A stretch of DNA of 64,000 nucleotides, from NCBI GenBank assembly GCA_963930775.1, contig OZ005706.1:6006428-6070427 (forward strand), written 5' to 3'. Origin of the DNA: Cliona cf. orientalis. Its lineage: Eukaryota; Porifera; Demospongiae; Clionaida; Clionaidae. Of this stretch, positions 4,234 to 32,658 are shown one piece after another. The notes under the pieces were generated by a model, which saw only the letters and a program-made list of their open reading frames with translations, had not been told where the DNA came from and did no database searches. Position numbers and translations under genes: made by a program. Within the stretch, counting starts at the first letter, position 1; each line of letters starts with the position of its first letter.

Positions 4234-5617
4234 CTACATAACGTACTCATAATCCGATGTAGTAGTATTTGCTGCGCTACTCGAGTACTAGTATGCAACA
4301 TTGTCATTCAGCATGAAATTATGTGTATGACTGTTCCTTATAATAGCTTCGTAAACGACATAATAATGACATTGTACATCCATTTCTTGCTGTTCAATTG
4401 TTTTCCTTTCACTCTTAATAGGGGTACGCATAAATTTCTTTCGGTGTTGCTTACATAATACTATATATGCAGACACAGAGTATCAGTGCCACAAGACCTA
4501 GGAAAGTTACTAGCAATCCAACTGAAGCAGCAATAGCATAATATTATACCAGAGGTATGATGACCCTGTTATTAATATTCTGTGTTGATGATGTCACTAA
4601 TTCCTGTGTGTGCATATTGTACGTGGTATCACCATTGTTGTATACAGTAGCCGACATACAGTCATCATGTAGACCTGCAGTCATAATGATCGAAGATTAT
4701 TCTACACTATAGCTATTATAATTATTATTGTACACAAAATTAATCACAAAATCTTCACCTTGCACTTGAATGATACCAGTTGTTTCATTACTGCTTCCAG
4801 CACAATTGTGAGCAGTGATAGAAAAGATGATGTTCGTATAATTATTGTATGATATTATGATATTGGTGATATTAATGACAGTAGCCATTGTACTATTTTT
4901 CTGTAAAATTTCTGACTCAAACTCAGACTCTGTGCTTCCTAATAATTGATACTCGTAAGATACTTGTGAACCATCAGCATTACCTTGTGATTCCCATGTC
5001 ACAGAAATGTCATAATATGAATCATTATGGCACTTCACTACTACAAGATCAAGAATTACAGATTGAGGAGGCTCTATTGTAATTCAATAATTAAAAAGTC
5101 ATAAATAATTTTTATGACATTGTGCAAATTATAGCTGTACCTTCAATGATCCTTATTATAATGTTATCTCGCGATGGTCCGGTAGTGCATTCATGCAATC
5201 ACTGCATTGTTTACTGACATTTCAGCCACTGTTGATAAAGTAGACACAAAGTATAGACGTTCACTTGAACGCAATTCAGTAGTCAAGCTACTGTATAGTC
5301 CAGCATTAGGTATGCAGAGCATTCCTGGGTGTTCACCCAACAGAAATGTACAGTGATCAGCTCGATCATCTTTCATTATTACCCATCTCTGAGAAGTCCC
5401 TTGACCAGTACAGGTAAGATTCAATTGCTGCCCAAGGCAAAGTGTACCGTTAATATTTGATATGATTGTTGTTGCTGTAGCAAAAGGATACTCTTATTAT
5501 AATAATAATATATATGTATACAGAGATATCAACAATAATAGCTATAGCCATAGTACCTGCATAATTGGTTGACACTCCAATTTTAAGAAAGCATAATACT
5601 GTTAACATTAGAAGCAT
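4234..5617 (-). pseudogene. Receptor A: Ig-FN3-TM pseudogene with ITIM-like tail remnant
   Basis: This is a four-exon copy of the neighbouring receptor B. Exon 1 (5557-5617) encodes the signal peptide MLLMLTVLCFLKIGVS. Exon 2 (5141-5474) is an Ig-like domain with CLGQQLNLTC. Exon 3 (4759-5073) is an FN3 domain with SITAHNCAGSS. Exon 4 (from 4674 down) is stalk, membrane span and tail. It is broken. Exon 2 is 334 nt where B has 330, with an extra CATG just before the second Ig cysteine. A TAA lies at 4544-4546 at the start of the membrane span. The frame shifts at about 4470, and TAG stops at 4288-4290 interrupt the tail. Read through these lesions, the tail matches that of receptor E (VVYEAI, DNVAY, TTTSDYEYV), while the ectodomain matches B, so A looks like a product of exchange between cluster members. 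Confidence 0.8.
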
Positions 5618-5857
5618 AATAATTATTACTGTAACACTAATTTAAAATTAAATCTATTGCTGGTAGTTACAATTATGAAAGGATAATAATTATTATTGTG
5701 AGATTCTTATTATCCTCCTAATTATTTCTGCATGACAAATAGCTAGTGCAATTGTGCATGTACTTCCTCGAGTGTTTATAGCTAACTATATCTAAACATT
5801 ACTGATCCCCAAAAGTTTCGATTAGCATGCATGCACATTGCCAAGTTGCTATTACTG

Positions 5858-5993
5858 TAGTGTCCCAGGTAAGCACACATGGTAAGGCCCACATGGGCGC
5901 TTACCCGGGACGTAATTCCATACATTTGTATAGAAGCTGCTACCTTGACCTCTTGAAATGAGGTCCATGCATGGGCGCTTGCCTGGGACACTA
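5858..5993. mobile_element. MITE with TAGTGTCCCAGG ends
   Basis: The left end TAGTGTCCCAGGTAAGC and right end GCTTGCCTGGGACACTA are inverted repeats. The inside also has partly inverted CATGGGCGCTTACC blocks. A solo fragment with the same GGGTGCTTACCCGGGA core lies near 8890-8905. The element sits between receptors A and B. Confidence 0.7.
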
Positions 5994-7080
5994 TGGTATA
6001 ATAATATTATTGCACTTGTGCATGATCAGTACTAGTACGTGACTCTCATAAGGCTATCACCGTTTATAATAACTGATATATATCTATATACAACATACAT
6101 ATGACTGATGTTTACGAGTGAGCTGAGGCAGGGACATCTGCATGCCTTATACACTCTCAAACACTGACTTCACTTGTGATGATAATTCGATCAATAGCAG
6201 TATACTAAATTTTGTGATAATCGTATGGAGAGAGTGTGATACTTGTATTATATCAGTGCTTCTGGTTTTCCTCAGGTGACATAATGTACTATTCACACAA
6301 ATTCAAAGTATAATAAATATTATTATTATTATGTAAACATGGGGGCTCTCTCCCATTGGTGAATCAGATTATTATTCATAATGATATGAATAACATTGAT
6401 TCATCATGTGATTTATATGGGATGGCATGTGGCGTTTAATGTCATGTGACCTCCATCAACATGGAATAATTATCAATATTATACCAGTTACAATAATAGC
6501 AATGTGTGCATGCATGGCTTAATGCGCCTTGAACTGCTGGTTCACACTTCTTCCTTCTGTTGTCAGATCATAATTATTATAATAACATTGAGAAGAAATT
6601 GTGGTGGAATGCCATACCAGAGAGTAGTGGCATATGCTGTCAAAAATTAACGGAAGGCATGATAGAGTAGCAATAAGATCAACAATATTATTCCTTCATT
6701 GGCATAATAATAATAATAATATTATTATTATATATAATATAATAATAATAATATTATGGACTATAGTTAATAAAAATTAATGTTTGTCTTTCTCATGATG
6801 CTGACATCTATTACACAATATCTTATCACTATTAGCCAAATTACCACTCTGCATGATATGAAATTTAAATTGTATACCTATATAACATCTATACATAATA
6901 CTATTATAGCTAGTTATAATGCATGTGCATGAGTGAGAGTGACACTTAATAATTATTAAGTGTCGCTATCACTGAATTATAAGCTTATTACTAAAAGGTG
7001 CATAGTACTGTTAGGCTAGCTCCATTGGAAAGCCATAAGCATCTTCTTGTCTATAATTATTTAATTTTTCTTCATCACCT
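5994..7080. other. Intergenic region between receptors A and B
   Basis: Very AT-rich. ATT/AAT trinucleotide runs at about 6700-6760 make a long imperfect AT palindrome. The repeat GACACTTAATAATTATTAAGTGTC at about 6941-6964 is a short perfect hairpin. No coding exon is evident. Confidence 0.5.
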
Positions 7081-8656
7081 TTAATTTTCATTATTGCTAA
7101 CTTTGCTCTCCTTATCCAGTACTGCTGACAGACTTACATTGTCATTTGCATTGACTTCAGAATTAGGTAGAGTGTCAGTAGTCTCAGCATTGGCGGTATC
7201 TAGATTTTCATATATCATATTATTATGACACCCGGAGATAACATCGTATGTACTTTCAATTAAGATAGTATTTGATTCCCCTGCAGTTTCATGTAAACAT
7301 GTTTGTTTTGATTCAACACCTGTGGCTTGTTGATGATCACATATAGGCTCAATGGTGAAGTAAACAGGCTCTTGTTCATGGGAATCTCCATTTTTGTGCT
7401 CAAGCAAATATTTTCTGTGTTGATTACATACATAGACACAGAGTGTCAATACTATAAGACCTAGGCACATTGCTAGCAAACCAACTGGCACAGCAATAGC
7501 ATAATACACCAGAGGTGTAGCTGAGATGATCTTATAATCATTCTGCATTGTCAATGTCACTAATTCCTGTGTGTGTACACTGTAAGCGGTATCTACAGTG
7601 TAGTACACAGCTGACATCTTTTCATTACAGCCATCATGTAGATCTGCAGTTGCAATGACTGATTAATATAATTGTATAGCTATAAATTATAATAATATTA
7701 TATTAGCTAATTGGCTGTACAGGCTAACTATATAATAATAATAATAATAATATAATATTAATATTATTATTATAATTTCACCTTTTATTTGAATGATATG
7801 AATTTTCTCATTACTGCTTCCAGCACAATTGTGAGCGATGATATAGAATGTGATGTTTGTATAGTTGTATAATAATAATATTGTGATATTAGCAGCAGTA
7901 GCTGTTGTGTTCATTTCTTGTAAAATTTCTGACTCGAACTCAGACTCTGTGCTTCCTACTAACTGATACTCATAAGATAGGCTTGTGAACCATCAGCATT
8001 ACCTTGTGATTCCCATGTCACAAAAATATCATATGAATCATTATGGCACTTCACTATTACAGGATCAAGAATTACGGGTTGAGGATGCTCTACTGCATGT
8101 ATACAACAATTCAATCATAGCTAATAATAATGATTGTTACAGTCATGCATTATACAAAGAAATTAATTATGGCGTACCATTAATGATCCTTATTATAATG
8201 CTATCTCGAGATAGTCCAGAAGTGCATTCAATCATTGCATTGTTTAATGACATTTCAGCCACTGTTGATAAAGTAGACGCGAAGTGTTGACGTTCACTTG
8301 AATGCAACTCAATAGTCAAGCTACTGTATAGTCCAGTATTAGGTGCGCATAGCATTCCTGGCTGTTCACCCAACACAAATGTACAGTGATCAGCTCGACC
8401 ATCTTTCATTATTACCCATCTCTGAGAAGTCCCTTGACCAGTACAGGTAAGATTCAGTTGCTGCCCAAGGCAAACTGTATCATTGATGTTCGATTTGATT
8501 GTCGTTCCTGTGTATAGCAAAGCTGTAAATTGTTATCGTGTGCTATGCACCAAACTGAGGCATCAACATTAAATTTATACCTGCATTATTGACTGACACT
8601 CCAATTTGAAGAAAGTATGTGACAGTAAACATTAGAAGCATTTTTATCACTTGCAT
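7081..8656 (-). CDS. Receptor B: Ig-FN3-TM receptor with ITAM tail (one frameshift)
   Basis: Four exons in phase 1. Exon 1 (8581-8656) encodes signal peptide MQVIKMLLMFTVTYFLQIG. Exon 2 (8178-8507) is an Ig-like domain with CLGQQLNLTCTGQGTSQRW and a second cysteine in AMIECTSG. Exon 3 (about 7782-8089) is FN3. Exon 4 (7081-7643) holds a stalk, a ~25-residue membrane span starting near YYAIAVPVGLLAM, and a ~110-residue tail. The tail contains YDVI, eight residues, then YENL: the exact spacing of an immunoreceptor tyrosine activation motif; YFTI lies further upstream. Exon 3 has two extra bases (GCC TAT against G TAT in gene A) near 7983, which shifts the frame and gives immediate stops. So this allele is either a young pseudogene or carries a sequence error. 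The role as a cell-surface signalling receptor is inferred from domains only. Confidence 0.75.
7201..7248 (-). other. ITAM-like motif in receptor B tail
   Basis: The codons read Y-D-V-I, then SGCHNNMI, then Y-E-N-L. This fits YxxI-x8-YxxL, the pattern that recruits tandem-SH2 kinases of the Syk type once phosphorylated in other animals. It lies in the uninterrupted last exon, downstream of the frameshift. Confidence 0.7.
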
Positions 8657-9116
8657 GAGTATATAGTGCTATAATTAATATTATTTATTATAATAATGAC
8701 TAAAAATTGTATGTGCATGGGCATGTGTTCTATTATATACCTATAGCTCTTTAAAGTTGATAAACTGTATTGCTGTTCCCAAAGATTTCTGTAGCTATCA
8801 TGCTGATCACCAAATTGTCATTCTGATCCGTCATTATGTAAGCTCAGCTTTAAACATAACTCGCGATTTTGGCCCGCATGCATGCCATGGGTGCTTACCC
8901 GGGATTGGTAGCTAAATATAAAATTAATTTCTATTAATTTTTAGTCTATAGCGTTTTAAATTATTGCAGTACAGTAACTACTGTAACAATTGTTACTGTA
9001 ACAGTAAATAAAATATATACAGTACACCTTTAAATTAACTAGCTAACTATAACTAACTAACATAATGACATTGTATATGCATAGATAATAGATACTCCTC
9101 CTGGGAAGAACAGTAA
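8657..9116. other. Receptor B-C intergenic
   Basis: Contains a fragment of the GGGTGCTTACCCGGGA element near 8890-8905 and short repeated TACTGTAACA units at about 8970-9000. No exon found, including no alternative tail exon for receptor C. Confidence 0.4.
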
Positions 9117-10440
9117 TTAGTAAGTTCCATATTTTTTGCCACTCACATTGTTTTCAGTACTTCCTTGCTTTTGGCATTGGTATACAAGACACACCGAAAG
9201 TATCACAATTACTATCAATAATGCAACGGTAGTAATAGTAAATCCAGCAGCTAAACCGTTGACTCTCATCTTTAATTGTTCTTCACTACATGGCTGTGGT
9301 GTAGTTAAACCTGCTGCTTCTACATGGAACATCAAGGTTGCGGGTTCACTTTGTTGTTCACACAAATCAATAGCTGAGACACTGACACTGTAGTTTCCAT
9401 CACTAACTACTTCAGTGAATGAGGAATTGTGTAGTGACACGTATAGATTGTCAACTGTTTTGGTGTTAATTAAGGTCAGATTGTAGCTTACAACATTAGT
9501 ATCAGTATCGTTGGATGAATCCCAGTCAATTGATGCTACAGCACTTGGGATTGATCCTTGATTTCCTACAATTCTATTGGTATTCTGCATGAGCATTGTT
9601 GGCTTTTTTGGCTTAGCTGCAAAGGAAAAGTCACATAGCTCATTAAAATTTATAATAAGCCAGGTGCTGTTTACTCAATACCAAGAGTCTAAATTTACAT
9701 AGTCAACATTATTATTATCAGATGTTTATTTAAATGTTAATCATTAGAGCAATAATTATCGTTACAATGCCATAATTATGCACGCACCTGCAACTTCATA
9801 GTGCTGACTTTGGCAAATGGCTGTGTTATTTTCATCACTACAGTGGGTTTGACAAGAAACATTGAAGGGGATGACTTCAAAATCATTATCATCAAATGGC
9901 TGAATTGTCAAATAAGAAATACAAAATGGCACACTGATATTGTATTCTTCACCGGCTGTCATATTTAGTTCAGTTAGTACGGTTGTTACATTATGCACTG
10001 GCTTTTCAGGTGGTTCAGGAAAAGTTTTTTTATATGTTGTACCAACAGTGTCATTAAGTTGAAAGCTACTCATCACTCGACCATTATAATACCATATCAG
10101 ATCAGTGCTATAGAGGTTACAAAAGAAAGCATAGAAGTAGGGCTTGGTGTCATTACAAATGAAATTTCCCGGGATTGTACGGGTAAAATTTATAGGCAAT
10201 GGAGCTGCTATGTCATCATTGGTCAGATTCAAACATGTCCTGGCTTCAACTTCATCCTTGATAACTGCATAAGTATATATATAATATTATAGTAGCTACT
10301 ATAATATTATACTAACATTAATTATAACGTATATACATCTGCGTATCGCTACCAAACTAGCTACCTTTGCACTGCTGCGAGGCCACTGTACGGAAGAGAA
10401 GGATGATTGCATAACAAAAAAGCACCGTCTTGAAAGACAT
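9117..10440 (-). CDS. Receptor C: Ig-FN3-TM protein with very short tail
   Basis: Three exons in phase 1 give a 350-residue open protein. Exon 1 (10365-10440) encodes MSFKTVLFCYAIILLFRTVA, a signal peptide. Exon 2 (9788-10264) encodes a divergent Ig-like domain of about 159 residues rich in N-glycosylation sites. Exon 3 (9117-9616) encodes FN3 (YSVSVSAIDLCEQQS), the linker TTPQPCSEEQ, a membrane span (TVALLIVIVILSVCLVY) and a tail of about 20 residues ending GKKYGTY. The tail has no YxxL/I motif. A good donor, N|GTGAGT at about 9140, lies in the last codons, so a splice form with another tail is possible, but I found no matching exon. It is transcribed away from receptor D. Confidence 0.75.
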
Positions 10441-11611
10441 CTCCACAACAGCCGATAATAATTCGGTGGAACGGAACGGAGACGCGAATCAAAGATGACT
10501 GAACGGAATCGTAGAATGACCACGCCTACCGAATGAAAGTACAATCGGACTGATAGGTCGCCGCACTAGGATCTATCCAGAAAATGTTATGCGAGGTAGA
10601 TCTACAAAGTATTAAATACTATAGAAACACGCAGGGCCTGCTTGGGGCGAGCCTGAGCTGAGGTTTCGTAGAGCCGCCATCGCGATTGTGAAAACCATGG
10701 ACAAAGGTCCAAGCCGAGATCATTCCACTTTCTCGAAGATAAATGGTGACCTAGGGGAATATAATATAATCTATGCTAAAATCCTGTCACGAGAAAATTT
10801 GAGGGTCGTTTATGCCACTCGACCCTAACTTAGTAGATTATATGCCCACTGTGACAGCCGCATAGCTAGCTGCCTCTGTTGTATAATATTATACTATATA
10901 CTATTACAGTCTCAGTGAGCAGCATGCCAGTCTATCTCGATCGCCGCTCCTCGCGCTGTTGCTCGTGCGATATTCTTAGTCGCGTCCCCAGAGTGCACCC
11001 TCGAGGCCGTGGCCCAGGCATGAGAATGCGCAATAGAATATTTCGCGCTTACGTCCACGGATTATCATTAATTTTGGTACGGTGATCAGCATTTGACTAG
11101 AGCTACCAGTCAGCGCAAGAATAAATTGAAGAATGGTGATCATCATATAGCTAGCTCTTTCCATTCCTGAGATACACACAGGCGTCTGATGCGGTTTATA
11201 TTATTTGATTGCTGACTCTATAGCTACGTATATGACTCGAAAACCATAGCTAGCACGATAGATCATCAAGACCACTAGCTGACACCATCCAAGCATAGTC
11301 GTGCCCGTCTCACAATCCATCCATGCAATCACGCATATATATATAGGCTCCACGAGCACGAGTGTAAATTAGCAATTCGCTAAATTAGAATAGCGTATAT
11401 ACGGTCCATAGCCCGGGCCAGACATGGGAATGCGCAATAGAATATTTCGCGTTTATATTCATAGAGCCATGTTGGGTGCAATAATTTCGCGTGACGAACT
11501 ATCATTCGCGCACAGCCGTATTGTGGACCCGCACCTCCAATTCGGTTTAAATAACCGCTCTATCCACTGATGCTTGGGAACGCAGACTTGCATTGATAGC
11601 TATATACATCG
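10441..11611. promoter_or_regulatory. Divergent intergenic region of receptors C and D with duplicated module
   Basis: The start codons of C (-) and D (+) are 1.17 kb apart. A ~45-bp module containing GAATGCGCAATAGAATATTT occurs at about 11016-11050 and again in the same orientation at about 11424-11458. Both copies are preceded by a CCAGRCATGRG stretch. A shared regulatory role for the two genes is an inference. The ATGCGCAAT core resembles NRF1/C-EBP type sites but was not tested. Confidence 0.4.
11107..11164 (-). CDS. Orphan signal-peptide exon upstream of receptor C
   Basis: A 58-nt stretch on the minus strand starts with ATG and reads MERASYMMITILQFILALT before a GT donor in phase 1 (ACTG|GTAGCT). 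This is the same layout and phase as the first exons of receptors B, C and D, and the donor sequence GTAGCT equals that of receptor C exon 1. It could be an alternative first exon for receptor C or the relic of a lost member. There is no downstream Ig exon of its own before exon 1 of C. Confidence 0.4.
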
Positions 11612-13955
11612 ATGGCGAGGATTTTAATAATTATTTCTGTAATTATTTTAGTAGCAGTGAATTTAAGTGCAGGTATGTTGAGCATGCACATTCATTACGC
11701 ATTATTATCACAATGTCATAGTACCAAGAGTGTGATAGCTCTAGTACTTAATAATAATATCTTGCATGCATGCATGCATAATTATATTTTTTTAATAGCG
11801 GGAACTATCACTGCAAACATGGACAGTGCACTCTGTCCAGGAGAGCAATTGATACTGAACTGTGTGGGTCAAGGCACTTCCCAACGCTGGCTTATCTATC
11901 ATGTCGGTATTTCATCACCTTATGAGTATTCTTTCACAAAGGAAATTGCTCTAGGCACACAGTACACTCGCTATCCAAACCAGTATACCTTTACTTTAAT
12001 AGCACGAGAGTACAACCATTTTGAGTCCTCCTTTTCAACAATAGCCATGCAATCGCTGAATAATACCAGAGTTGTATGCAATGATAATCAGCCTGCCAGT
12101 GATTTCACCATACGGATTACAGGTATGCATGCATGCAAGCTAGTTTATAGAGTGCTATATATTATATTATGGGGGAAAGGGGCATTCTCTCATAAGCAAC
12201 TGTGCACCTCTTACCCCTCAAAGGTGTATTATATCTTAGTATATAATCATTATTTGCTATAAGTACACTATAATATCACCCAAGCATTAAAATAATGTTA
12301 ATGCTCGTAAACAAATCTCAATAATAATAATTGTAACAGTTGAATGCATTTATTTCGTGCCTCACAGATCACTGCCCCTAGCTACCACATACCCTGCAAC
12401 TGCCAGCCATGTCGATATTCCCATGGTATTATCATAATTATAACCACTGCTAGAATCCTCATCATGTATTATGTCAAATTTTTAAAGGATATTATGACAC
12501 TATAGGTTCACCTGCATCACCCCTCAATGTTGATAGTATTGTAGACAAATATTATAGCAATTATTCAACAGTGACAGTCACATGGGATATCTCTACTGAT
12601 TATTCAAGAGTGGATTATTATCAATACACGTACCAACTACTCGACGAACAGATGATAGCATTTAATACAACCAACACTTCGTTTACACACTTTGGTGTAT
12701 CCTATAATGAAAACGTGACAATCAGTGTCACCTCGTTCAATTGCATAGGAAAAAGCATTCCAGTGGTTTATCAATTTCATATAGGTACAAAAACACTAAA
12801 TTAATAATATAGTACAAGTATAATATATTATTATACATGTTCTAATCACAGTTGGATGCAGTGTGCTAAATGCTACCTTGTACAGTTTCAATAATTCAGC
12901 CTTCAGCCAGGCTCCTGGAACACAGCTTATGCTTTCATGCAACCTGGAGACATACAATAACAATCATGTAATAAAAACAATGTGTCAACACGATGGGATG
13001 TGGGAACCTGATCCAATGAGCCAACTGTGTCAATCAGGTTAGTTTCATAAACTAGTAATTCAATAATAGTTATTATTTACAAAAGCTACTGTAACACCAT
13101 GCATGCAGGTGTGTATCTCACATGATGTTTTTTTATGATTTTCATCCCCAAATTCATTCAGACCCAATCACAGTTGATACACTGTCATCTGCTTCACAAA
13201 CACAGACCAACATTGGTACTGGTCTGGCTACAACTTCAAGATTCAACACAAACACTATGTATGCGATAACCATAACTAACAATTCAACTACCGTTATTTT
13301 ACCTATCTATGTCTTTGCTGCTATACTGGCTACATTTCTGTGTACTGTTGTAGGGATAATTACCACTGTCTGTGTACTTAGACAAATTATAAAACGCAAA
13401 AGAGCCACTGTACTTGCTGTACCACTGTACGATGAGATTACTGATCCTATTTATGCCACTGTACCTGGAGATAAAAGCAAGTCAGGTGTTGACAGTGCAA
13501 ATAGACAATTTGAGTTATCCGCTAATGATGCTTACAAGCAGATCCTGTCTCAAGATAAACATACTGCACAACCACAGGGAATGAATATTTCCTTAACTGC
13601 ATTCAATGATAACACAGCATATGTGCCTAGTAATTCCGCAGTGACTACAGATAGTGTGACAACAACATGGAATGATTCATATCAATTTGCTACATCTATG
13701 AGATCTCAGAAAGCTTTGGCTAAAACAAAAAATATGATCATAGGAAGCCCCACGTATATTCATACCTCTCCACAGGGCATGATGTCTGAGCGTTCAGCTG
13801 ATCCAGGCAAAGAAATATTTAATACTGATTGGAAAGGAATCTCCTGTGGAAGTTCTAATAGCGAGCTATTCAATTTGAATCCCACCCAAGTATTTAAGCA
13901 ACACTCTGAGGCACAGAATAAGAGTGAGACCAAAGGTTCAGTGCATGGGGAGTAG
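11612..13955 (+). CDS. Receptor D: Ig-FN3-sushi-TM receptor with multi-tyrosine tail
   Basis: Five exons, all phase 1, join into an uninterrupted 547-residue protein. Exon 1 (11612-11672) is the signal peptide MARILIIISVIILVAVNLSA. Exon 2 (11799-12122) is Ig-like with CPGEQLILNCVGQGTSQRW, close to A and B. Exon 3 (12506-12784) is FN3 (VTISVTSFNCIGKS). Exon 4 (12852-13037) is a 62-residue sushi/CCP domain with four cysteines and GMWEPDPMSQLC. Exon 5 (13162-13955) has a Ser/Thr stalk, a membrane span (LPIYVFAAILATFLCTVVG), the basic stop-transfer KRKR and a ~190-residue tail. The tail has YDEI and YATV four residues apart, YKQI, and further tyrosines in AYVP and PTYIH. These are SH2-type YxxI/V motifs, though the first pair is too close for a classic ITAM. 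A transducing cell-surface receptor is the most likely role; the ligand is unknown. Confidence 0.85.
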
Positions 13956-14993
13956 CTAATTATATTATCAACAGTGACTTACAGAATTTAAGCTATTAAC
14001 TAACATTCATATCAATGATAATAATGTAGAACTGACATTATTTTGTGTATATTCCCTATAACTATAATATTATTTACTGTAACAGCTAGTAATTTTCCTG
14101 TCGTGTGTATGTTAATCAGACTTAATTATCATTTTATGGGAAGATGTTGAAGATTGACCATACTATTGCCAATGAGCATCCAATAGGTATACAATTGCAA
14201 CAGAATGGGTACAAAAATCAATGTTACTCTCCAGTAGTCCCATGGAAAAGGTCGTCACATGCACTCTGCTGACCCTTGATCCTATATATATAGTGGTACG
14301 TACTCAATATTATGTTGAGTGCTAGTGCTAATTAGGTTCTCCTTGGTACTAACTACTATGGATTATTACTTTGTGCACTAGTAAAAGCAGATAGTGTTAC
14401 TGTAAATTTCTTGTGGTATATATCCACCTGACCACTGCTGAGGAGGTGGTAAAACTACATAATATTATCATCAAACAGGGGAAGACCCTGCTGTTACTGC
14501 ATGCTGACGCAATACAGTCACACACACACTTGATCTACTCCCTCCTCTATGAGCATGCATGCATGCTTATTATGACTTGTGCTTATCTATCTTTAAAACC
14601 TTTATGTTCACTGGCTCGTATCTCCCATGAAAACTCATTCATGAACACACTGGCTTGCATTATTCTTTTTTTTTTGAAGAATTCTTGCTTAAAATTAATC
14701 ACGTAGCAAAGGATACACAATAACCAAAATTATAGCAGCTAATCGGGTGTGCACCCAGCGACATACATATTAACTAATTACTTACAGTGAGAATACAACA
14801 ATACCTTTAGTGGTCAGTGCATGATTTACAAAATTAATGGAATCTGTTCTGTCTGTTAAGGGTTTCCAAATTCTAAGTATTATGACTATAATATATTATT
14901 CAGTATTCTATCTATGATACAGAGTACTTGAGGAACCAGAAACCTACACTTACACAATAGCTATAGTTTTTTAAGCATGCCATTACAAAATCC
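13956..14993. repeat. Intergenic region with duplicated segment
   Basis: Between the 3' ends of receptors D and E. The part at 14420-14505 matches 1349-1437 ([10 protein letters not shown] in translation) and 14855-14882 matches about 2605-2632. The two ends of the cluster region therefore share duplicated DNA. GGAAAAGGTCGTCA at 14244-14257 is a variant of a motif that recurs in the window. No intact gene. Confidence 0.5.
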
Positions 14994-16999
14994 TTAAATA
15001 CACTCATAGTCTGATGTGGTAGTATCTGCTGCGGTGGAGTATGCAACATTGTCTTTCAGCATGACATCATTGTATGCATAACTGTTCCTTACAACTTCAT
15101 ACACAACATTCTTTGATACATGTATGTCCATTTGTTGCTGTTCCACTGTTTTCGCTTTGCTTTCCCTCCAAATATGCCTAAAACCTTTGAGTATTGTGTA
15201 TGAATTTGCGACCTGCACTCAACGCAATAGATGCATGGGTTTATCATCTCACCTTTAAATTTTATGATGCCTGCTATTGCTGCTGTAGAAACAAGAACAA
15301 TGAGAGTTATTCCCAGCAGGCTTCCAAGAGAAATAGAAATCCCAAGCAGTATCTTATCCATCTCTGTGTTGGGATCTGCTTCTAAAAAACAGCAATTTGG
15401 ATACTAATACTATTATTATCATTATATTATAGATTCGAGTAGCTAATGTTATAACATTATTATATAGACACTGTTTGCATGATAGTATGATTATTTCAAT
15501 CTATTATTTCATGATATTCGTTACGTTTGGGTGATACAGAGCATTCCACTTCAGTAGGATCAGGCATCCAGGTGCCTCTAGAAGTGCACTTGGCCAGGAT
15601 GACACCACTAGGGAATAGTCCATCACTACACCAGAGGATCAGCTGTGATCCCTCCACTGTCGAGTTGTATTCCAGACTGACATTACTGTTCACTGTTGGT
15701 GTTTCACATTTAGCTGCAACAATTATTATCATAAATGAGGTATACATGCAGGTGTACATGTACATAGTATTATACACACTGCATGGCATAATATTATATA
15801 TAAGGACCTGGTGTAGCTAAATTTTAACTTGAAGGACGTCTAATTATTATCATGATGCCTTCTATACTGTCTTGTCTCATACATGTAACAGTCAGACATT
15901 TATTAAGCTCCTGGTCCTTAATGTAAAGAAAGCACGCTCAGCTCTTTATAATATTATTATTGATAACGTTGTCTCTCTAAGTGCGTACTCTATACACTGC
16001 AAGTTAGCCTATTGCTTACAATCATTATTGGGAGATGGTGTGGCATGCAGTTTCATTCATCATGAATCCATGACCCTATATTATACTCTATAATAATATA
16101 GGTCCGTTATTGTGGTATTAGATTTTTAAACACTTTAGGACCAGCTATATATTACACTCTATACTCACCATAGCTTATTTTAGTGATGGTAGTCCTGGTG
16201 GTTTGTCCACAAAGGATGGCATTCACAGTGAGATAATATGGAGTATTATAAATCAGTAGTAGTTGAATACTTGTGTTGTCAGTAAGCCATGTCATCGAAA
16301 TACTTGGAGGTATTATGCTCACATCGTAAGATGCAATTCTGCCCGCCAAGTCAAGCCATCCCAATGTGACCGTGACATTTTCAGTACTAAACTCTTCAGA
16401 ACGGTGTCTAATCATAGCAAGATGTGGAAAATCTATTTAAACAAAACAATAATTACTAGCTAATCACCATGATTAAGATTAATATATCATACATTTCAAA
16501 ATCTACCTTGAGCCGTATCGACAACACGAAGCATTGCTTCATTACTCCTGTCCATTTCCGTATCCCGTTCAGTACATTCAATTTTTGTACCATTAAGATT
16601 AACAGTCACAGAGTTAACCAACAACTCAGAAATTAGGGGAGATATGGAAGGTATTGCAAAATCAACCACAACAGAGGGGACTTGAAGCGGTGTGACATGC
16701 CTAGCTGTGTTAAAGGCTGAAATCACTCTTGTGTTAGTAACATCATAGTAAGGAATAGTGACATTCCATTGTAGAAACATGCTATCATTTGAGAAACACG
16801 TCATAAGGAATTGTCTTCCCGGACACACCAATACTTGCCCACTAGGTACTACTTCGAATGCACCTGCACAGTAAATACGATTCATAGACACCCAATGCCA
16901 AATTAAACAGGTCTTGATAGAGCACTTACTGTTTGAGCATACAAAGCATCTCACAAATATTAACAGTATGGTAGAAGTCCTGTTCATATAAGGCTTCAT
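14994..16999 (-). CDS. Receptor E: Ig-FN3-sushi-TM receptor with ITIM-type tail
   Basis: Six exons give about 410 residues. Exon 1 (16930-16999): signal peptide with TSTILLIFVRCFVC. Exon 2 (16507-16863): Ig-like with VCPGRQFLMTC and KIECTERD. Exon 3 (16169-16432): FN3. Exon 4 (15525-15713): sushi domain with CTSRGTWMPDPTEVEC; its donor AAAC|GTAACG is weak but keeps phase 1. Exon 5 (15253-15381): membrane span (LLGISISLGSLLGITLIVLV). Exon 6 (14994-15217): tail with VVYEVV and SDYECI, both fitting the ITIM pattern [S/I/V/L]xYxx[I/V/L], plus DNVAY. The intron before exon 6 would be only 35 nt. If it is retained, a different tail ending ...MLCMKL without these motifs is made. An inhibitory receptor is the inference; the first intron is also short (66 nt). 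Confidence 0.75.
14997..15108 (-). other. Two ITIM-type motifs in receptor E tail
   Basis: VVYEVV (about 15091-15108) and SDYECI (14997-15014) each match [S/I/V/L]xYxx[I/V/L]. The same two positions read VVYEAI and SDYEYV in the remnant tail of pseudogene A, so both motifs kept the consensus while other residues changed. Confidence 0.65.
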
Positions 17000-18003
17000 T
17001 ATTAATTCACAGTTCAGAGTTACAGTATCTGCTGTTGTAGCTATACATACTTAATTGCATTAGTTATTATAAGTATGTTTAACTGTACCTGTAACACTAT
17101 TGTTACCAGCTACTGAAGCTACGTTTGATAACCGTTACGGAGTTAATGATATGTAGCTAGCTAGCTATAGGCATACGGCATCTGAACTAACAACAGTTAC
17201 TATAATACAGTTTGATAAAGAACTTTTCCTGTTTTCCTTATGCTGCAATATTAATGTATACTAATTATGTGTATTGGTGACCTGTGATGAATCCTCTTCC
17301 TGGATCTCATGATCAGTCTAGTGGGGTGTGGTCTGATGGGTGGTTGTCAGGAAGCAGGTGAGCCCAATTGAGCTAAGGTGCACCAGGGGAGAAACATTGT
17401 TAGGATGTTTCTATTTCAGGTATGTTTACAGGAGTATGATAATAATATTATAATCATACACCCGTTTAGCTAGACAATAATTATTATGTGTATAGTATTA
17501 CTACGGTTATTATTTTCTACAGTGTTTTTCTAAAGTAGCTAAATGGGTGATCTTATATCTTCCCCCTCCACTTCTGATAGGTGCAATGTATGATTTTAGC
17601 CAATTCAAAATAATTATTAAGTATATATGCATGACGATAATCAATAGTGAGACAATCTGCCACTATTAATTTTCACACTTCGGCACATATCCAAGACTGA
17701 CTCAGAGGTGGTCTGTATGCACACCTGTGCATACTGCAACACACAGATCAGTTATTTTGATGGCATCTAGAATAAGGACTTTCATAACTGTGTGTGTATT
17801 GTCTAGGAAAAAGTGAATATCCTAAGCTATAATAGGTAGCTAATGAATAATATTATCGGATGTCTAGACATCATTCTACAAACATGAATTTTGTAAAATG
17901 ATTTACCAGCTGCACTCTTGTCCTCATGCATCAGGTATATGTCTAGATATAGCTATAGTATGATATTATTAATTCTGACATTGATTTTCAGGGTCCCACA
18001 AGG
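17000..18003. other. Head-to-head intergenic of receptors E and F
   Basis: Receptor E (-) and F (+) start about 1 kb apart. I see no coding exon. A splice acceptor (TTTTCAG) at about 17983-17989 lies just before the first coding exon of F, so a 5' untranslated exon of F probably lies further upstream. Confidence 0.4.
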
Positions 18004-20059
18004 ATGTATATTATTGTAAACTCGATATTGATCTTGGGTGAGTGTAATAACAATGATTATTATATCCTCCAATAACAATAATATTATTATAATACGCAGT
18101 ATTATTAATAAAATACCTGGTAAAACACTGATAGGTAATATACAGTTGATTATAGCATCTCCTCTGACTTCACTGACCAGTACTCATTCAGGACGACCAT
18201 GTCCTGGAGATAAAATAGTGTTCACCTGCATCACAAATGGATCATCCAGTCATGCTTGGAGAAGTGATGAGTACATTGGTGTAGGTGGTATCCAAATAGA
18301 GTTTGCAGCTTTTGAGAGGCCAGGATTAATACGCACACCACCAAGCAATCCAGCATCTTCAACACTTGCAAGATTTATTGCTGTTGAGAACAGTACTAAT
18401 GTACAAGGAGTACTTCAATCCAAACTTGAAATCACTGTGTCTGCTGACTATACCATCTCCACTATATCATGCACAAATGTCGATAGAAATCTGACGAATA
18501 CATCAACAATCGAGATTCTGCTGGGTAAGCTTAACTTTAAGTTAGTGTTTCATGGATTCTTAAGTGTACATTTCCAGAGTTAATATACCCATGGATTATA
18601 TATTATAGCTATTATACCGGCTACTGACAACCTACAAAGTAATGGATAAATATATCCAGGGGGGAAGGAAGTGGGTCAGTATTTAACTCGGAACTTCGGA
18701 AGGGAAAGAGAATATTAATTTAAACGTGTCGAGGGGTTCAAGCATCAATCTCTAATTCGCCATGATGCCTGATCCCATTCCCTTCTGTAAAAAAATAGTT
18801 TGTATCCAGGGGGAGCAAAGCTCTATTATTAAGGATTACAGGGGAATACTTTCCATGCTGGGGATAAAATTTTCCATGCTGGTTATCCATTAGGTGTCAG
18901 CCACTGAATGGAATACCCCATGCTGATGTAGGTAGCTAATGTAACAGTAAATTTTATTCAGTGATTTTAAATTTCAGATAGACCTGGTGTACCTGAAAAA
19001 GTGGTCCTCTTTAAATCATCAGATTCTTTCGGAAAGGGAAGTGGCTGCTTTGTATTTGTGCAACTGAGTCCCCCAACTAACATTAAAGAGGACGATGTGG
19101 CCCATTACATTGTTGATTACAATTTGGGAAGCACTGTACTCAGGAGTACATCATATGAGTTTCGAATACCAAACTGCTCGGTTGAGCTTGAAATAGAAAT
19201 CAGTGCAGTCAGTAGGTGTGGCAGTTCAGGAGACTATATAACAGAGGTTGTACCGCTATTGCTACCAGATGAGTCTCCCATAGCTGATTCAGAAGGTATA
19301 CTATCATCGTGATAAGTATAGCTACTGTAACACTGTAAAGTAGTTATTGTGCATGCCTCTTATTATAATATCCAGCTTCATCTTTCACACTGATCATGAT
19401 TTACTAGGATTCAAATTTGTACACAAGCAGTTGATCCTAGAATTTTTTTGCTAAAACAATAAAATCTGCATGAATACCAAAAAGTTTTAATGATTAAGTG
19501 AGTGAGATTGCTTGCTGCATATAATACTGTAGAATTCCACAATTATGCCCCCCCCTCAAGCATAAGCCCACCTGCACTTTTAGCTCAAGTTTATGTATTA
19601 GGTAGTTTTGTCTTGCGTATAAGCCTTCTCCCTGACTGTAAAATGAGTCCATAAGCCAATAAAAGCTGTTTACAGCAGCTAAATTAAGCTAAGAAAGGCA
19701 TTTTTGTTATATATATAATAATATTATGCCTTAGCTACTTTGTCGTTTTTCTCGAGTTTTGCCCATCAAACAGCCAGAGAAAGCACGTCCACGTTGCATT
19801 CCTCAGTCGGTAATGGTACTATAGGGGGCATAATCTATGGGTATATAGTCGTATGCAGCACCTATAGCCATTAAATAATTAGCTAAAACTATATTGTAAT
19901 ATTTCAGGTCCAGCTCTTGGAGATCTTGAATCTTACGTACAGATTGGTATTGCTTTTGGAGTTCTCGGACTTGTATTTAGTGTTATTGCTATTATCATAA
20001 GCATAACGTTATTTGTTGTGTTAAGGTCAAAAAAAAACCACCTAACAAACTATAATTAA
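18004..20059 (+). CDS. Receptor F: Ig-FN3-TM protein with very short tail
   Basis: Four exons in phase 1 give an open 290-residue protein. Exon 1 (18004-18037) encodes MYIIVNSILIL, a short hydrophobic start; an acceptor 14 bases upstream suggests a spliced 5' leader. Exon 2 (18156-18524) is Ig-like with CPGDKIVFTC and a later TISCTNVD. Exon 3 (18978-19295) is FN3 (LEIEISAVSRCGSSG). Exon 4 (19908-20059) gives the membrane span IGIAFGVLGLVFSVIAIIIS and a tail of about 11 residues, RSKKNHLTNYN. With no tyrosine motif, it could pair with a signalling partner, act as a decoy or serve in adhesion. The intron between exons 3 and 4 contains a MITE relic (19525-19840). Confidence 0.75.
18640..18930. 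repeat. Intron insert of receptor F
   Basis: The second intron of receptor F carries short duplicated phrases, CCAGGGGGGAAGGAAG-type G-runs and two neighbouring copies of TTTCCATGCTGG (about 18848 and 18871). It is probably a worn transposon; I could not define its ends. Confidence 0.35.
19525..19840. mobile_element. MITE relic, TACCGTAGAATCCCG family
   Basis: Starts TACTGTAGAATTCCACAATT and matches 48834-49228 for about 300 bp, including CATAAGCCAATAAAA and CTCGAGTTTTGCCCATCAAA. The right end, with the complementary terminus, is missing or worn. It is inserted in the last intron of receptor F. Confidence 0.65.
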
Positions 20060-21741: not shown

Positions 21742-23111
21742 TTAAAAAAATGTTCCAAATTCAACTGAATCACACTTTTTATCGCCAGTGGTATAGCCTC
21801 CCACTACCATCAGTTGGTAGTCAGGGAGGACAGCTGATAAACAGTCATATCTAAGTGTTGTCATAGACTGATGACCTCCCAGGATTTAGTGGTTGGCTGG
21901 TGCATATGAACAGCTGTGGTGGGTTTGTATTCTGAATCCTCCCCACCAATTGCCAGCAGTCGACCATGAAGACTCACAGCAGTGGAGAGCTCTACAGGGA
22001 GGTCAGCAACTCTGTTCCATGGGCTACCTCTGCTGGATCGTGTTAGTGTACTTACAAGACGTTTTCCTAGCGATGTGGAGCCAGCAGAGGAAAGAAGTGA
22101 TGCTAATGAACAAGAGTACACTGAATTTGTAGCTGTTCCGTCTTTATCACCTCCCCCCAGCAGATAGACCAGACCACCACAGAGTGTTATTGATGAACGT
22201 GCCAATGGTTGAGGTAGATCAGCAGTAGTGTGCCACTCTCGAGTCTCAGTGTTCAGCACTTCAACCGTTTTCAGTGCTTCATCCTCACCACCACGTCCAC
22301 CATGGCCCCATCCCCCTACTATGATCAGAGTTGTTCCAGTGCACAGTGCAGACACATAATAACATTTAGCTAGATGGCATTGGTGGGAATTTCTCAGTCC
22401 ACCTCCTACGCCCCTGCCCTCACCAGTCAGACTCAACAGCTTGTTGGTATTCTCACCACTGCTCAATCCTCCAACTGTAGTCAGTAGATCATCAACGACT
22501 GCCAGAGCAAATCCTTTACATGGGGAATCTGGAGTGAAAGACCAGTTGGAACTTGGTATGTGGTAGGCATATACCTTGCAATTTGAAGCACATCGGCAAT
22601 ACACTGTGCTGTTGAGTACAACAGCATCAGAATATCTAACTATTTCACATGGAACCTTCTTTCCTTCTCTCCACCTCAGATTGAAATCAGTTCTGCTCAC
22701 TGTTCCAACCTTGGCTCCGCCATCTTCCCCCTGTACCTGACTTCTCAGCGCTCTAACTTCTTCTTCAAGTTCTGTGTTTCGTTTGCCAAAATCAGCTATC
22801 AGTTGGAGAGATCTCTGTGGATGATGCTATTGGAGTGGAGAAATGATAGCGCTTGAATTATATCGTGGCAGATGTTGACTTGGATGTGGTAGGGGATCGG
22901 CTGTAGGGAGCTTTCCAGAAAGTTGGTCAGGCTGTCGTCCATCAGCTCCATTAGTAGAACTGGGAGGCTTGTTTTGGGATCTTGGTGGGTGCCCAGGTAT
23001 TGGACAATGTTAGGATGACGTACGGTGCTCAAGAACTCACACTCTAGTTGAAACCTCCTGATTGGTAGCCTGTGCTCTCTGTGAGGGGCTATTTGATGCA
23101 GTGCAGTTGGT
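21742..23111 (-). pseudogene. Protein kinase - coiled coil - Kelch gene, decayed
   Basis: Minus-strand remnant. The exon starts after an acceptor at 23112 and encodes the middle of a kinase N-lobe and hinge (CEFLSTVRHPNIVQYLG, VLLMELMDDSL) up to the catalytic HRDLSN at about 22803. There two stop codons follow, and the rest of the C-lobe is missing. A different frame then gives a coiled coil (DFGKRNTELEEEVRALRSQ) and a Kelch domain from about 22690 (LRWREGKKVPC, YAYHIPSSNWS, several paired-Gly blades such as LIIVGGW and LVYLLGGG). The Kelch frame breaks at about 21861 but resumes one frame over (MTTLRYDCLSAVLPDYQLMV) to a stop at 21742. Lack of the first kinase exons, an internal deletion and a frameshift make it a pseudogene. 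As I recall, kinase-Kelch proteins form a large family in sponges. Confidence 0.8.
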
Positions 23112-29189: not shown

Positions 29190-30866
29190 CTAGTCCAAGT
29201 CTTTCAGGAACTGGAGGATGTCTTCAGCAGAAGGCATACCAAGTTCAGATGTAGTCTGACAACTTTCGGTTGTCACTGAACTGAGTGAACTGCTGCTGGT
29301 GAAGTTGACTGGAGCAGATGATCCATGGTTGATGTTTATATTCACTTGACAGCTATCAAATTTCATGTTTGGTCCAAATCCGGGTCCAAATGTGGACATG
29401 GTTGGGATGTTTTTGTGTTCGAGCTTTGTCATCTCTGCATGATATGATGACTGTGAATGAGAGGATAGGATATTTGACACAGCTTGCTGCTGTTTGTCAC
29501 TGGTGCGTTCGTACATACGCAGACACTCCAGAGAACGGTGGCCAGTCCTCTCCTGTATAATTTTTTCTGGAACTTGTGCTTCATATAGCTCCGTAGCCCC
29601 TGTCGCCCGCAGACTATGATTTGTTTTGTGGCCTGAGATATTCCCAAGTTTGCACATTTCAGGGACCATCTGTGAGAGTTTGTTGCGTCCAAGTGGGATG
29701 CTGTAGTACCACACGGACCGTTCATAGGTAGGGGGTTGTTTATTCACCTTTTCCATTGGGCGAACATAAAAAAGATCCTTTTCAACAGCTTCTGGTGGAA
29801 GTTTACTGATATAAAGATCCAAGAGACGACAGTGACAGCGATCTCCAGCTTCAGGATTCTCGTGAATCTGAACAGATTTGTTTTTGATGTGCAATTGTGC
29901 CAATCCACCAGAGCGATTTTTAGATGCATTCTCAGTGTACGTATATCCATTTTCGGTTCGTCTGAGCTGAGACAGTCGCAAGTTCCTGTGTTCATTTCCA
30001 CCTCGCAAGCAAAAGTTTTTCCCGTTGTTGAAAAACACAGCCCGCAGCAAACTTGTAGGGTTGTCAACACCTAATACACCACATGCCCATAGCTGGTTCT
30101 CTTCCTCTTTTGTGAAAGTCTCAGTTGATTGTTTCTGAGCACCAACACCGTCTGCCCTCAGCTTTCTATACACCGAGTCCATCGTATGGTGCAGTGTCTG
30201 GAAGGCTACATCATTTTTCGCAAAGATATTTGGAGCTCTCTCCTTATCCACAGCTTTCATGTGTCTTTGGAGACCAGATAGCAATAACTGAAGGGTGGTA
30301 GGAGGATACGGTTCACCATTAACTTTTCTGGTCTCGGCTATAAAGATGGATAACCACTTATTAAGGCTAGTCGGCTCCATATCTTCTAAGAGGGTCTCAG
30401 GACACTTCTCCTCACTGCTCTCATTTCTGTTGCTCATCCAGGAGTTAAAGTTCTCCAATGCCCATTTTGTTGAATTCTCAGTGTTTTTAGGAACACAAGC
30501 TTTAGAAAGGGTATCTAGCTCTTCTTTGCTGAGCTTAGAGAAACGAGTCTTCTTTGCAGGTGGTGAGCATTCAGAGGGGTGGACCTGGATATTTGCAGTG
30601 CTAGCGAGCGATAGATATTGAGGGTGGGGCTGAAGTGGCGCTAATTGGGAGGATGGGCCTGGGCGGGACTTGGGAGGGGGCGGAGATAGAGAAGAGTGTG
30701 CGTTGAGCCTGCTGCTGACAGCGGATAAATTTCGCTCGAGCGATTTAAGGTAAGAGTCAGTCCATTCCTCCATTCCTAAGCTGAATTCGGGCCGAGTTGG
30801 ATGTACTGTAATACTTTCCAGGAGCGAAGGAGAAACAACGGGAAAGAAAGCTGGTGAACTAGCCAT
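29190..30866 (-). CDS. Crypton-type tyrosine recombinase / DUF3504 protein
   Basis: An intact single-exon frame of 558 residues starts MASSPAFFPVVSP. Residues 1-110 are Pro/Ser-rich, with a possible basic nuclear signal (PPAKKTRFSK). Residues ~115-230 are a helical, core-binding-like part (WALENFNSWMSNR, LNKWLSIF). Residues ~250-470 are the DUF3504 catalytic-fold domain. Signature positions of tyrosine recombinases are visible: R in CLRGGNEHRNL, H-x-x-R in NHSLRATGATEL, the TGHRS histidine and the Tyr of LRMYER. The C-terminal ~90 residues are Ser/Thr-rich. Crypton transposons carry such enzymes, and animals have domesticated relatives (ZMYM2-4, QRICH1, KIAA1958). The lack of introns and full conservation of the catalytic set fit a mobile or recently mobile element; flanking foldbacks on both sides are suggestive. 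A domesticated DNA-binding gene is the alternative. Confidence 0.8.
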   Translation of the reverse strand: MASSPAFFPVVSPSLLESITVHPTRPEFSLGMEEWTDSYLKSLERNLSAVSSRLNAHSSLSPPPPKSRPGPSSQLAPLQPHPQYLSLASTANIQVHPSECSPPAKKTRFSKLSKEELDTLSKACVPKNTENSTKWALENFNSWMSNRNESSEEKCPETLLEDMEPTSLNKWLSIFIAETRKVNGEPYPPTTLQLLLSGLQRHMKAVDKERAPNIFAKNDVAFQTLHHTMDSVYRKLRADGVGAQKQSTETFTKEEENQLWACGVLGVDNPTSLLRAVFFNNGKNFCLRGGNEHRNLRLSQLRRTENGYTYTENASKNRSGGLAQLHIKNKSVQIHENPEAGDRCHCRLLDLYISKLPPEAVEKDLFYVRPMEKVNKQPPTYERSVWYYSIPLGRNKLSQMVPEMCKLGNISGHKTNHSLRATGATELYEAQVPEKIIQERTGHRSLECLRMYERTSDKQQQAVSNILSSHSQSSYHAEMTKLEHKNIPTMSTFGPGFGPNMKFDSCQVNININHGSSAPVNFTSSSSLSSVTTESCQTTSELGMPSAEDILQFLKDLD

Positions 30867-31263: not shown

Positions 31264-32658
31264 TCACTCTGCATTTAGTTTCATGTCATCAACGAGGTCT
31301 GAAATTGTTGAGACAGTGCCCATAGCACTATCATTTTCTGGCACCAATAATTGCGGTTGCAATTGATTGTATGTTGCCATTGGTAAATTTGCCACCTTAG
31401 GGTTCCTGTTGGCTCCATTGAGTATTTCCACTTCATCAGATGAGTCTTGAGGATTGATCTTATTCTTACTCTTCTTGATTAGGCATGCAATGAACTAAAA
31501 ATATTATTGCAGCAGTTTCTGTTACTAGTAGCACTCCCAATATTCCAATACCTGATCCAAAAGCACCAATATAAGATATGCAGCTTTGCGTCCGATTACT
31601 GGTATGTGGACTGGTTGCAGCTTTTGGATGCATAGTTTCAATTGATCTTGTTGGGGTAGTAGCTGTGGTAGTTGAGGGTGTGATGATAAATGTGTCGTAA
31701 CTGAAGCATAAATTATTATCATGTTGAACTGCACACTTTGGAATAAGAGTTGGAGTTTCTTGATCAATAGATAGATCTATTCGAATTTCATAGGTGGACT
31801 TGTTTGTATGACTGCATGAACTAATTGTAGTCGTGGTAATATTGAAGTGATCTTCTTTATATAAATCTTCTGTATCCAGAGAGATAAAATCCCCACCAGA
31901 GTCTCTACTTGACAGTGAGGGGTCATAAATAATGTCTATATAAAGTCTGAAATTATAACCAAGAGTGTGGTCATGGCATGTAAAAGTGCAGTAGAACACA
32001 GATGGCATTGATTCATCTGCTTCAAATACGTCAAAGTTTGGTGTCATGACAGCTGTCAGGTTTCGATAGGGTCCCCTTATATCAGCCCTGCAACTACTGC
32101 AACTGATTCCTATAATAGGAAAATAACCATCGCATAACAAAAGGACTCTCCCTTTTAATACTGACAGTACTAGTTATCAAATTAATGCCTATATTAATAA
32201 TAATTATTATTAGTGCTATATATAGTATATGCCATGGCAGCCGCAGTGTCATAATAGCTATAGCCAAAATCTGTAAACCATCCAACACTCACTCATAGGC
32301 GGATCCAGCATAGGGGCACAAGGGGCACGTGCCCCCCCTTTTTGGAGAGCCACACATGCAAGCTATATAGCTACAAGAGAGGCACACATTCTAGGGCTAT
32401 CAACTGTGGAGTAAAACTATCTATAAACCAACTTACTTAGTGCTTTTTAGCTCAAATGGCTGAGCCACTTCCATTTACCACGTGTCGACTAGCGTTGAGC
32501 GGCAATTTAAGGGGTGTGGTCAAGCGTTAGGGGGCGGGGTCGCAAAATTTTCGCGCGCGTGCCCCCTCCTATCACAAATCCTGGATCCGCCACTGCTCAC
32601 CTTGACACACTCTGAGCAGCAGAGCCAAGTAGAGTAACAATAACCATCTACTCATCAT
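31264..32658 (-). CDS. Receptor G: type I membrane protein with Thr/Pro stalk
   Basis: Three-exon model, 279 residues. Exon 1 (32601-32658) encodes the signal peptide MMSRWLLLLYLALLLRVC. Exon 2 (31470-32109) encodes a ~180-residue ectodomain with several cysteines (CSSCRAD, FYCTFTCHD, KCAVQHDNNLC), N-glycosylation sites, a Ser/Thr/Pro stalk (TPSTTTATTPTRS) and the membrane span GSGIGILGVLLVTETAAIIF. Exon 3 (31264-31405) encodes an acidic tail with ATYNQL and ending DDMKLNAE. The last intron would be 64 nt with donor GA|GTAAGA and acceptor CAACAG. Read through without splicing, the frame stops at 31466, but a +1 shift would give a basic KKSKNK segment and the same tail, so a frameshift allele cannot be excluded. 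The ectodomain may be a divergent Ig fold; the family is not recognised. A transposon sits in intron 1. Confidence 0.65.
32297..32592. mobile_element. MITE with GGCGGATCCAG ends in intron of receptor G
   Basis: AGGCGGATCCAG at the left and CTGGATCCGCC at the right are inverted. Inside are CACGTGCCCCCCC and TTTTCGCGCGCGTGCCCCC phrases. The right end lies only 8-9 bases from the exon 1 splice donor. Family members or ends occur at 23872 and 63485. Confidence 0.75.

Follow-up and report, generated by a model that had tools for sequence, protein, structure and literature searches.

The six-gene cluster

We analysed a stretch of 64,000 nucleotides from the sponge Cliona cf. orientalis (assembly GCA_963930775.1, contig OZ005706.1, positions 6,006,428 to 6,070,427 of the forward strand; hereafter the window), which carries a cluster of six transcription units, four on the minus strand (A, B, C and E) and two on the plus strand (D and F; Table 1). 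Judged by similarity across the genome, this cluster appears to be a small satellite of a far larger receptor family whose main arrays lie elsewhere. Exons are joined by GT-AG sites across the cluster models, and introns are in phase 1 wherever the frame is intact. The acceptor of F exon 2 was set by eye at 18135 (the modelled 18120 did not end in AG), the tail exon of E has a weak splice acceptor, and the frames of C, D, E and F are open, with joins that could be used. Relatives in other parts of the genome were found for nearly all exons, the exceptions being the signal peptides, the B tail and the F span exon (whose sole relative is weak, E-value 0.005); chance open reading frames (ORFs) were therefore rejected and the units are taken as genes, in agreement with a preliminary description of this DNA that had proposed six adjacent genes in both orientations. 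No seventh relative of A to F was found in the 64-kb window at an E-value below 0.05.

A and B are recent duplicates: their Ig exons are 91% identical over 287 nt, and the A Ig domain is 83% identical to that of B in amino acids. In A, 4 bp are inserted at the second Ig cysteine, a stop in frame precedes the membrane span, the frame shifts from span to tail, and the tail itself contains a stop. Compared with A, the FN3 exon of B has 2 additional bases (7980-7981).

Table 1. Predicted genes, exons and divergent intergenic gaps of the cluster (window positions).
Feature	Position	Strand	Basis
Gene A, pseudogene	4237..5617	-	exon models; lesions and frames read
Gene A exons	signal 5557-5617; Ig 5141-5474; FN3 4759-5073; span and E-like tail 4237-4674	-	
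Gene B	7081..8656	-	exon models; frame broken as assembled
Gene B exons	signal 8581-8656; Ig 8178-8507; FN3 7782-8092; span and tail 7081-7643	-	
Gene C	9117..10440	-	exon models
Gene C exons	signal 10365-10440; Cys-rich domain 9788-10264; FN3-like, span and short tail 9117-9616	-	
Divergent gap C(-)/D(+)	10441..11611		
Gene D	11612..13955	+	exon models
Gene D exons	signal 11612-11672; Ig 11799-12122; FN3 12506-12784; sushi 12852-13037; span and tail 13162-13955	+	
Gene E	14994..16999	-	exon models, relatives, predicted fold
Gene E exons 1-3	signal 16930-16999; V-set-like Ig 16507-16863; FN3 16169-16432	-	
Gene E exons 4-6	sushi 15525-15713; span 15253-15381; tail 14994-15184	-	
Divergent gap E(-)/F(+)	17000..18003		
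Gene F	18004..20059	+	exon models, relatives
Gene F exons	signal 18004-18037; Ig ~18135-18524; FN3 18978-19295; span and short tail 19908-20059	+	

Ectodomains

The hallmark of a V-set Ig domain is a beta sandwich with a Cys in strand B, a Trp in strand C and a Cys in strand F. AlphaFold2, run with 56 sequences, predicted this fold for the Ig domain of E, which we accordingly call V-set-like on the strength of the model. A Cys-Cys-Trp-Cys pattern is present in 41 of the 43 Ig exons collected by homology, the two without it being relic A and one exon beyond the spacing limits. The Ig domains of B, D and F were assigned by alignment only. Pfam detected no Ig domain in the cluster proteins, and a search of the genome with the Pfam V-set profile (best 150 of 272 candidates) gave 50 matches, those listed including none in the window cluster or on contig C2. 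A profile search of the PDB with the Ig alignment returned 17 chains at E-values of 0.27-0.78, 15 of them Ig-type by name (of the others, Kit is uncertain and interferon-activable protein 204 is not Ig-type), and lends the Ig assignment weak support. A protein homologue search with full-length E found no match among 3273 candidates.

The FN3 profile (A7), built without the FN3-like exon of C, matched 14 PDB chains (best E-value 7.5e-4), all named as FN3 molecules and taken by us to hold FN3 domains; Pfam fn3 was found in 4 of 23 family members at E-values up to 0.1. Among the six genes a sushi exon occurs only in D and E, where it scores under the Pfam cut-off (E 18.1 and D 12.3 versus 20.7 bits); a relative on C2 passes it with 27.2 bits. 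The sushi exon is thus optional, as the preliminary description had it. Its claim that every gene combines Ig and FN3 holds in part: the predicted E fold, the FN3 profile and the alignments of B, D and F agree with it, and the Ig label it gave exon 2 of C found no support. A Pfam scan of C to F (whole) and B (Ig and tail exons) detected no Calx-beta repeats and no kinase domain, so the layout is not that of a receptor tyrosine kinase.

Tails and membrane spans

We defined a strict immunoreceptor tyrosine-based inhibitory motif (ITIM) as [SIVL]-x-Y-x-x-[ILV]. Two strict matches, VVYEVV and SDYECI, lie in the tail of E (shuffle P 0.014), which had rightly been called ITIM-type. The tail of relic A, given the same label, is 56% identical to that of E and has no strict ITIM at its N[VI]AY site. 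The fetched loci and the window together hold 34 ORFs with xN[VI]AY (shuffled ORFs gave a mean of 0.55 out of 3879), and in 31 of them the site is a strict ITIM, the other three being gene E, relic A and one copy on C16. A second Yxx[ILV] lies upstream in 17 of the 34 tails and is a strict ITIM in 7.

The tail of D has 6 Tyr in 191 residues, in line with the many tyrosines first noticed there, and no strict ITIM. Four relatives were found, all on C1, and D-like tail motifs occur in loci L037, L038, L046, L047 and L056; the D-type tails of C1 loosely share with D the order Y-x-x-I, I-Y-x-[TS]-[VI], DAY, [AT]Y, SYQ. The B tail has the spacing of an immunoreceptor tyrosine-based activation motif (ITAM; YxxI/L-x6-8-YxxI/L), here YDVI-x8-YENL, which shuffles of its own sequence (n = 5000) reach in 0.36% (x6-8) or 1.1% (x6-12) of cases. 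This spacing, noted before, is seen in one gene whose frame is broken as assembled. The tail has no relative in the genome (2 of 10 candidates match, namely B itself and the A span), and an ITAM as a family trait was rejected.

C and F are almost without tails (21 and 11 residues, as cut in this analysis), as previously described. The short tail recurs in 3 of 3 F-type examples (window, L055 and L057; the spans of the latter two assigned by position, that of L055 also by a weak match at E-value 0.005) and in 2 of 2 C-type examples with a visible span (window and L037). Conserved hidden tail exons for C and F were not found in the compared stretches, with exons farther out possible; onward splicing of the L055 span exon is possible, and a conserved exon was not found there. 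Neither span has a K, R, D or E within its hydrophobic stretch. With different ectodomains and uncharged spans, C and F give no indication of pairing with an ITAM adaptor. Paired receptors in the strict sense, suggested earlier, did not hold up: the short-tailed C and F differ in ectodomain, and only A and B, a pseudogene and a frameshifted gene, share ectodomains with unlike tails.

Related arrays across the genome

We searched the genome (216.8 Mb in 149 contigs, the window lying on contig C18) and found that E- and F-type units fill C2:10.98-14.02 Mb. These amount to at least 210 units (141 E-type rows and 69 merged F-type units, no exon being counted under both types), a figure for units and not for proven genes, since rows are exons, some of them partial or with stops. 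The E-type count leaves out seven rows beyond C2:10.9-14.1 Mb and, where an exon was split over two rows, the second piece (two cases); the F-type count leaves out FN3-only rows and rows beyond the same limits, with F rows on the same strand within 2 kb merged (90 to 69, including a stop-bearing Ig row at C2:12461798). A query of the FN3, sushi, span and tail of E gave 153 matches, most of those listed on C2. A C2 Ig exon gave 151 (best 150 of 280 candidates), all those listed but seven lying in C2:10.98-14.02 Mb and 3 of them with a stop inside, and it recovered gene E at an E-value of 3.5e-7. The F query gave 136 (best 150 of 185 candidates), mostly on C2.

C- and D-types form an array at C1:1.93-2.33 Mb, which the B Ig exon query also matches; the further matches of exon 2 of C, 15 in number, all lie on C1 and include two pieces of one exon. 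Counts for C1 take rows inside C1:1.93-2.33 Mb only, exclude gene C itself and count the two-piece exon once. With its tail types and its relatives on C1 and C2, the cluster is well described, as had been suggested, as receptors with contrasting tails in a large family, whose members are probably immune-type receptors. Such a receptor family is not described in the titles and abstracts searched, a scope outside which most subscription journals and bioRxiv fell. As a separate observation, 26 span-plus-tail exons at C2:12.41-12.49 Mb are 84-100% identical to one query within about 77 kb, with diverse Ig exons adjoining, and the region is a good place for a study of exon homogenisation.

Ten D-type rows on C1 have a neighbour on the 5' side, and for 7 of them it is a divergent C-type row within 8 kb, as in the window (strand-shuffle P 0.0046, label-shuffle P 0.044, both inflated by local duplication of the pair). 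The C/D unit is a repeated arrangement, moderately supported, that arose partly through duplication. A locus on C16 (L055) repeats the E(-)/F(+) order of the window; divergent E/F pairing as a rule was rejected on C2, where it is seen for 5 of 68 F-type units (label-shuffle P 0.96), or 6 of 69 with C2:12461798 included.

Sequence variation

In one C2 array (L041, L050-L052), mean amino-acid identity is 65% for Ig (n = 14), 67% for FN3 (n = 12), 79% for sushi (n = 15) and 90% for span plus tail (n = 16), and synonymous differences per site (pS) are 0.336 in Ig versus 0.106 in tails. These comparisons suggest heads that are older or freer to diverge and tails that have been homogenised.

The C2 Ig exon query matched 70 public proteins. 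They include exact or nearly exact copies of this C2 array, from a 2.58-Mb contig, and different proteins from a 1.20-Mb contig. Of the latter, P0006 differs from C2:12478681 at 3 positions (83 of 86 residues identical), and for P0021, a C2-type exon, the assembly gave no match above 89% (best 150 of 287 candidates). Two public sequences are related to the D Ig exon and differ from it at 3 and 7 of 108 residues. The preliminary description had asked for variation of the Ig exons and for relatives with the same tails in other sponges; near-identical public variants exist and the tails are conserved among relatives within this genome, and, as the public sequences carry no stated species, the variants may be alleles or may come from close species.

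Proposed signalling and alternative readings

The genome has 103 SH2 matches. At locus L053 on C8, exons for two SH2 domains are followed by a tyrosine phosphatase, the layout of SHP phosphatases, which makes ITIM signalling possible and is not proof of its use. Runs of SH2 exons at C7:1.89-2.14 Mb (13 rows) and C19:5.40-5.52 Mb (10 rows) suggest local expansions of SH2 proteins.

We consider it somewhat better than an even chance that the cluster belongs to a lineage-specific family of single-pass V-set/FN3/sushi receptors signalling through ITIM and SHP. Each receptor would present a V-set-like Ig domain at its tip, followed by a single FN3 domain, up to two sushi domains, a membrane span, and a tail that either carries tyrosine motifs (A, B, D and E types) or is very short (C and F types). 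The variable Ig domain may bind a ligand on a microbe or another cell, upon which a Src-type kinase would phosphorylate the tail tyrosines. The ITIM-like V-x-Y-x-x-[ILV] of E-type tails would then recruit the SHP-type tandem-SH2 phosphatase and dampen the response. D-type tails, in which about five Tyr sites recur, may scaffold other SH2 proteins, and the short-tailed C-type receptors, often head-to-head with D-type genes, may work with D-type partners.

Several observations weigh against this account. At least four lesions make A a pseudogene, the 2 extra bases break the frame of B as assembled, and the exon joins of all six genes are predictions. The third site of the E tail, DNVAYSTA, misses the aliphatic residue at +3 and is not a strict ITIM. 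The collecting motif itself fixed N, V/I, A and Y, so in the count of 31 of 34 only the +3 residue is informative, and one array (L041, L050-L052) supplies 16 of these 34 E-type tails, all nearly identical. The small divergence of the tails is accompanied by a low pS, which points to homogenisation and not only to constraint. In no Ig pair (0 of 91) does pN, the nonsynonymous counterpart, exceed pS over the whole domain, and sliding windows of 15 columns reached pN/pS of 1.03 and 1.08 in just two, mid-Ig domain. NVAY, with its conserved N at -3, is compatible with PTB docking too, as Yxx(hydrophobic) is with AP-2 sorting.

These last points would also suit receptors for adhesion or cell sorting, with Ig-FN3 heads that hold cells together by homophilic or heterophilic contacts, tails whose NxxY and YxxV engage PTB-domain adaptors or AP-2 to link to the cytoskeleton and to serve endocytosis, and no immune role. 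Ig-FN3 chains are common adhesion molecules, and NVAY fits N-x-x-Y, most tails having leucines at -6 and -8. A 2025 review links sponge immunoglobulin superfamily (IgSF) proteins primarily to adhesion and intercellular recognition (PMC11999971). Yet hundreds of copies, and heads at 65% against tails at 90% identity in one array, would be unusual for adhesion molecules, and V-x-Y-x-x-[ILV] is kept in 31 of 34 tails, a pattern that AP-2 sorting would need and PTB binding would not; we judge a purely adhesive role unlikely. That the window cluster is a decaying relic, with only C to F open and the working family on C1 and C2, seems improbable too. The lesions of A, four or more, and the frameshift of B speak for decay. 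The open frames and usable joins of C, D, E and F, the D Ig exon found little changed in two public sequences and the rarity of stops among the listed C2 Ig matches speak against it.

An allorecognition role of the cluster is possible. Sponges tell self from non-self tissue with high specificity (PMC5450542), and the arrays might encode polymorphic receptors in which a self match leads, through the ITIM tails, to tolerance. Candidate allorecognition receptors of Hydractinia and Botryllus have ITIM and hemITAM-type tails (PMC12065747), the D Ig exon, P0021 and P0006 show variation, and the C/D head-to-head linkage resembles the FF/FcoR pairs of Botryllus. Against this, the 3-6% difference in D is modest for an allodeterminant and comes from public sequences without stated species, and divergent E/F pairing fails on C2. 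Calx-beta exons (165 matches, best 150 of 973 candidates) are listed mostly on C19 and C16, none of those listed lying in C2:10.9-14 Mb or near the window, and a word search of the main text of an Amphimedon graft transcriptome study (PMC5450542) did not return immunoglobulin, fibronectin, sushi, receptor or tyrosine. We therefore hold a full allorecognition complex to be rather doubtful. The further proposal is more doubtful still that the C2 array (at least 210 units over about 3 Mb) and its C1, C16 and C18 satellites together form a sponge histocompatibility complex, in which ITIM-tailed V-set receptors, partly head-to-head with short-tailed partners, would gate fusion or rejection through SHP. 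If true, ITIM-governed self-recognition would extend beyond cnidarians and bilaterians, either deeply conserved or independently invented. Dense Calx-beta arrays, possibly aggregation-factor genes, were seen at C19:0.15-0.45 and 2.97-3.00 Mb and at C16:1.56-1.58 and 6.68-6.70 Mb; among the matches listed, none falls inside the receptor arrays.

Other features of the window

Just past gene F, a Kelch-repeat-like ORF was recognised by eye at 21861-22826 (-). Also by eye, a 558-residue ORF at 29190-30866 (-) resembles a tyrosine recombinase, perhaps of a Crypton-type element, and one at 38639-39139 (-) the end of a retrotransposon reverse transcriptase. An ORF at 31466-32173 (-) appears by eye to have an ectodomain rich in Cys and Thr and a membrane span at the C-terminus; it matched neither Pfam nor the exons of A to F.

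Comparison with known systems

The mammalian paired receptors KIR, LILR and SIRP are, like this cluster, clustered IgSF genes with ITIM tails, contrasting tails and pseudogenes. They differ in that the cluster has no partner with a charged span, and joins similar ectodomains to dissimilar tails only in A and B, both of them broken. Sponge aggregation factors and Geodia Ig adhesion molecules are likewise candidate sponge recognition molecules (PMC11999971); unlike the aggregation factors, the cluster has no Calx-beta seen in it, and the Calx-beta matches listed lie elsewhere. The SRCR and NLR families of sponges are large immune-type expansions (PMC10855680, PMC6208332, PMC12909245) built from other domains, and the available parts of two of these sources describe no tyrosine-tailed Ig arrays (PMC6208332, PMC12909245). 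Sponge Ig, FN3 and sushi genes are among the responders to microbial patterns (PMC6208332).

Hydractinia Alr genes are single-pass IgSF receptors clustered with pseudogenes in one region (PMC11067881) and have ITIM/ITAM-type tails (PMC12065747); compared by description, the Cliona family differs in its FN3-sushi modules and its satellites on other chromosomes. The Botryllus FcoR and FF receptors combine IgSF and sushi domains in a single-pass protein with ITIM or Tyr-core tails, a receptor without motifs being encoded beside a tailed co-receptor (PMC12065747). By the same description, FcoR is set apart by its V-Ig, sushi and two C2 Ig domains, FN3 not being named in the part available, and by its place in one locus of about 800 kb with known genetics. 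A sponge array of such size, with ITIM tails and an SHP-type phosphatase, would extend the pattern to sponges, a testable question for which these genes are a concrete candidate, whether for self/non-self discrimination or for the sensing of microbes.

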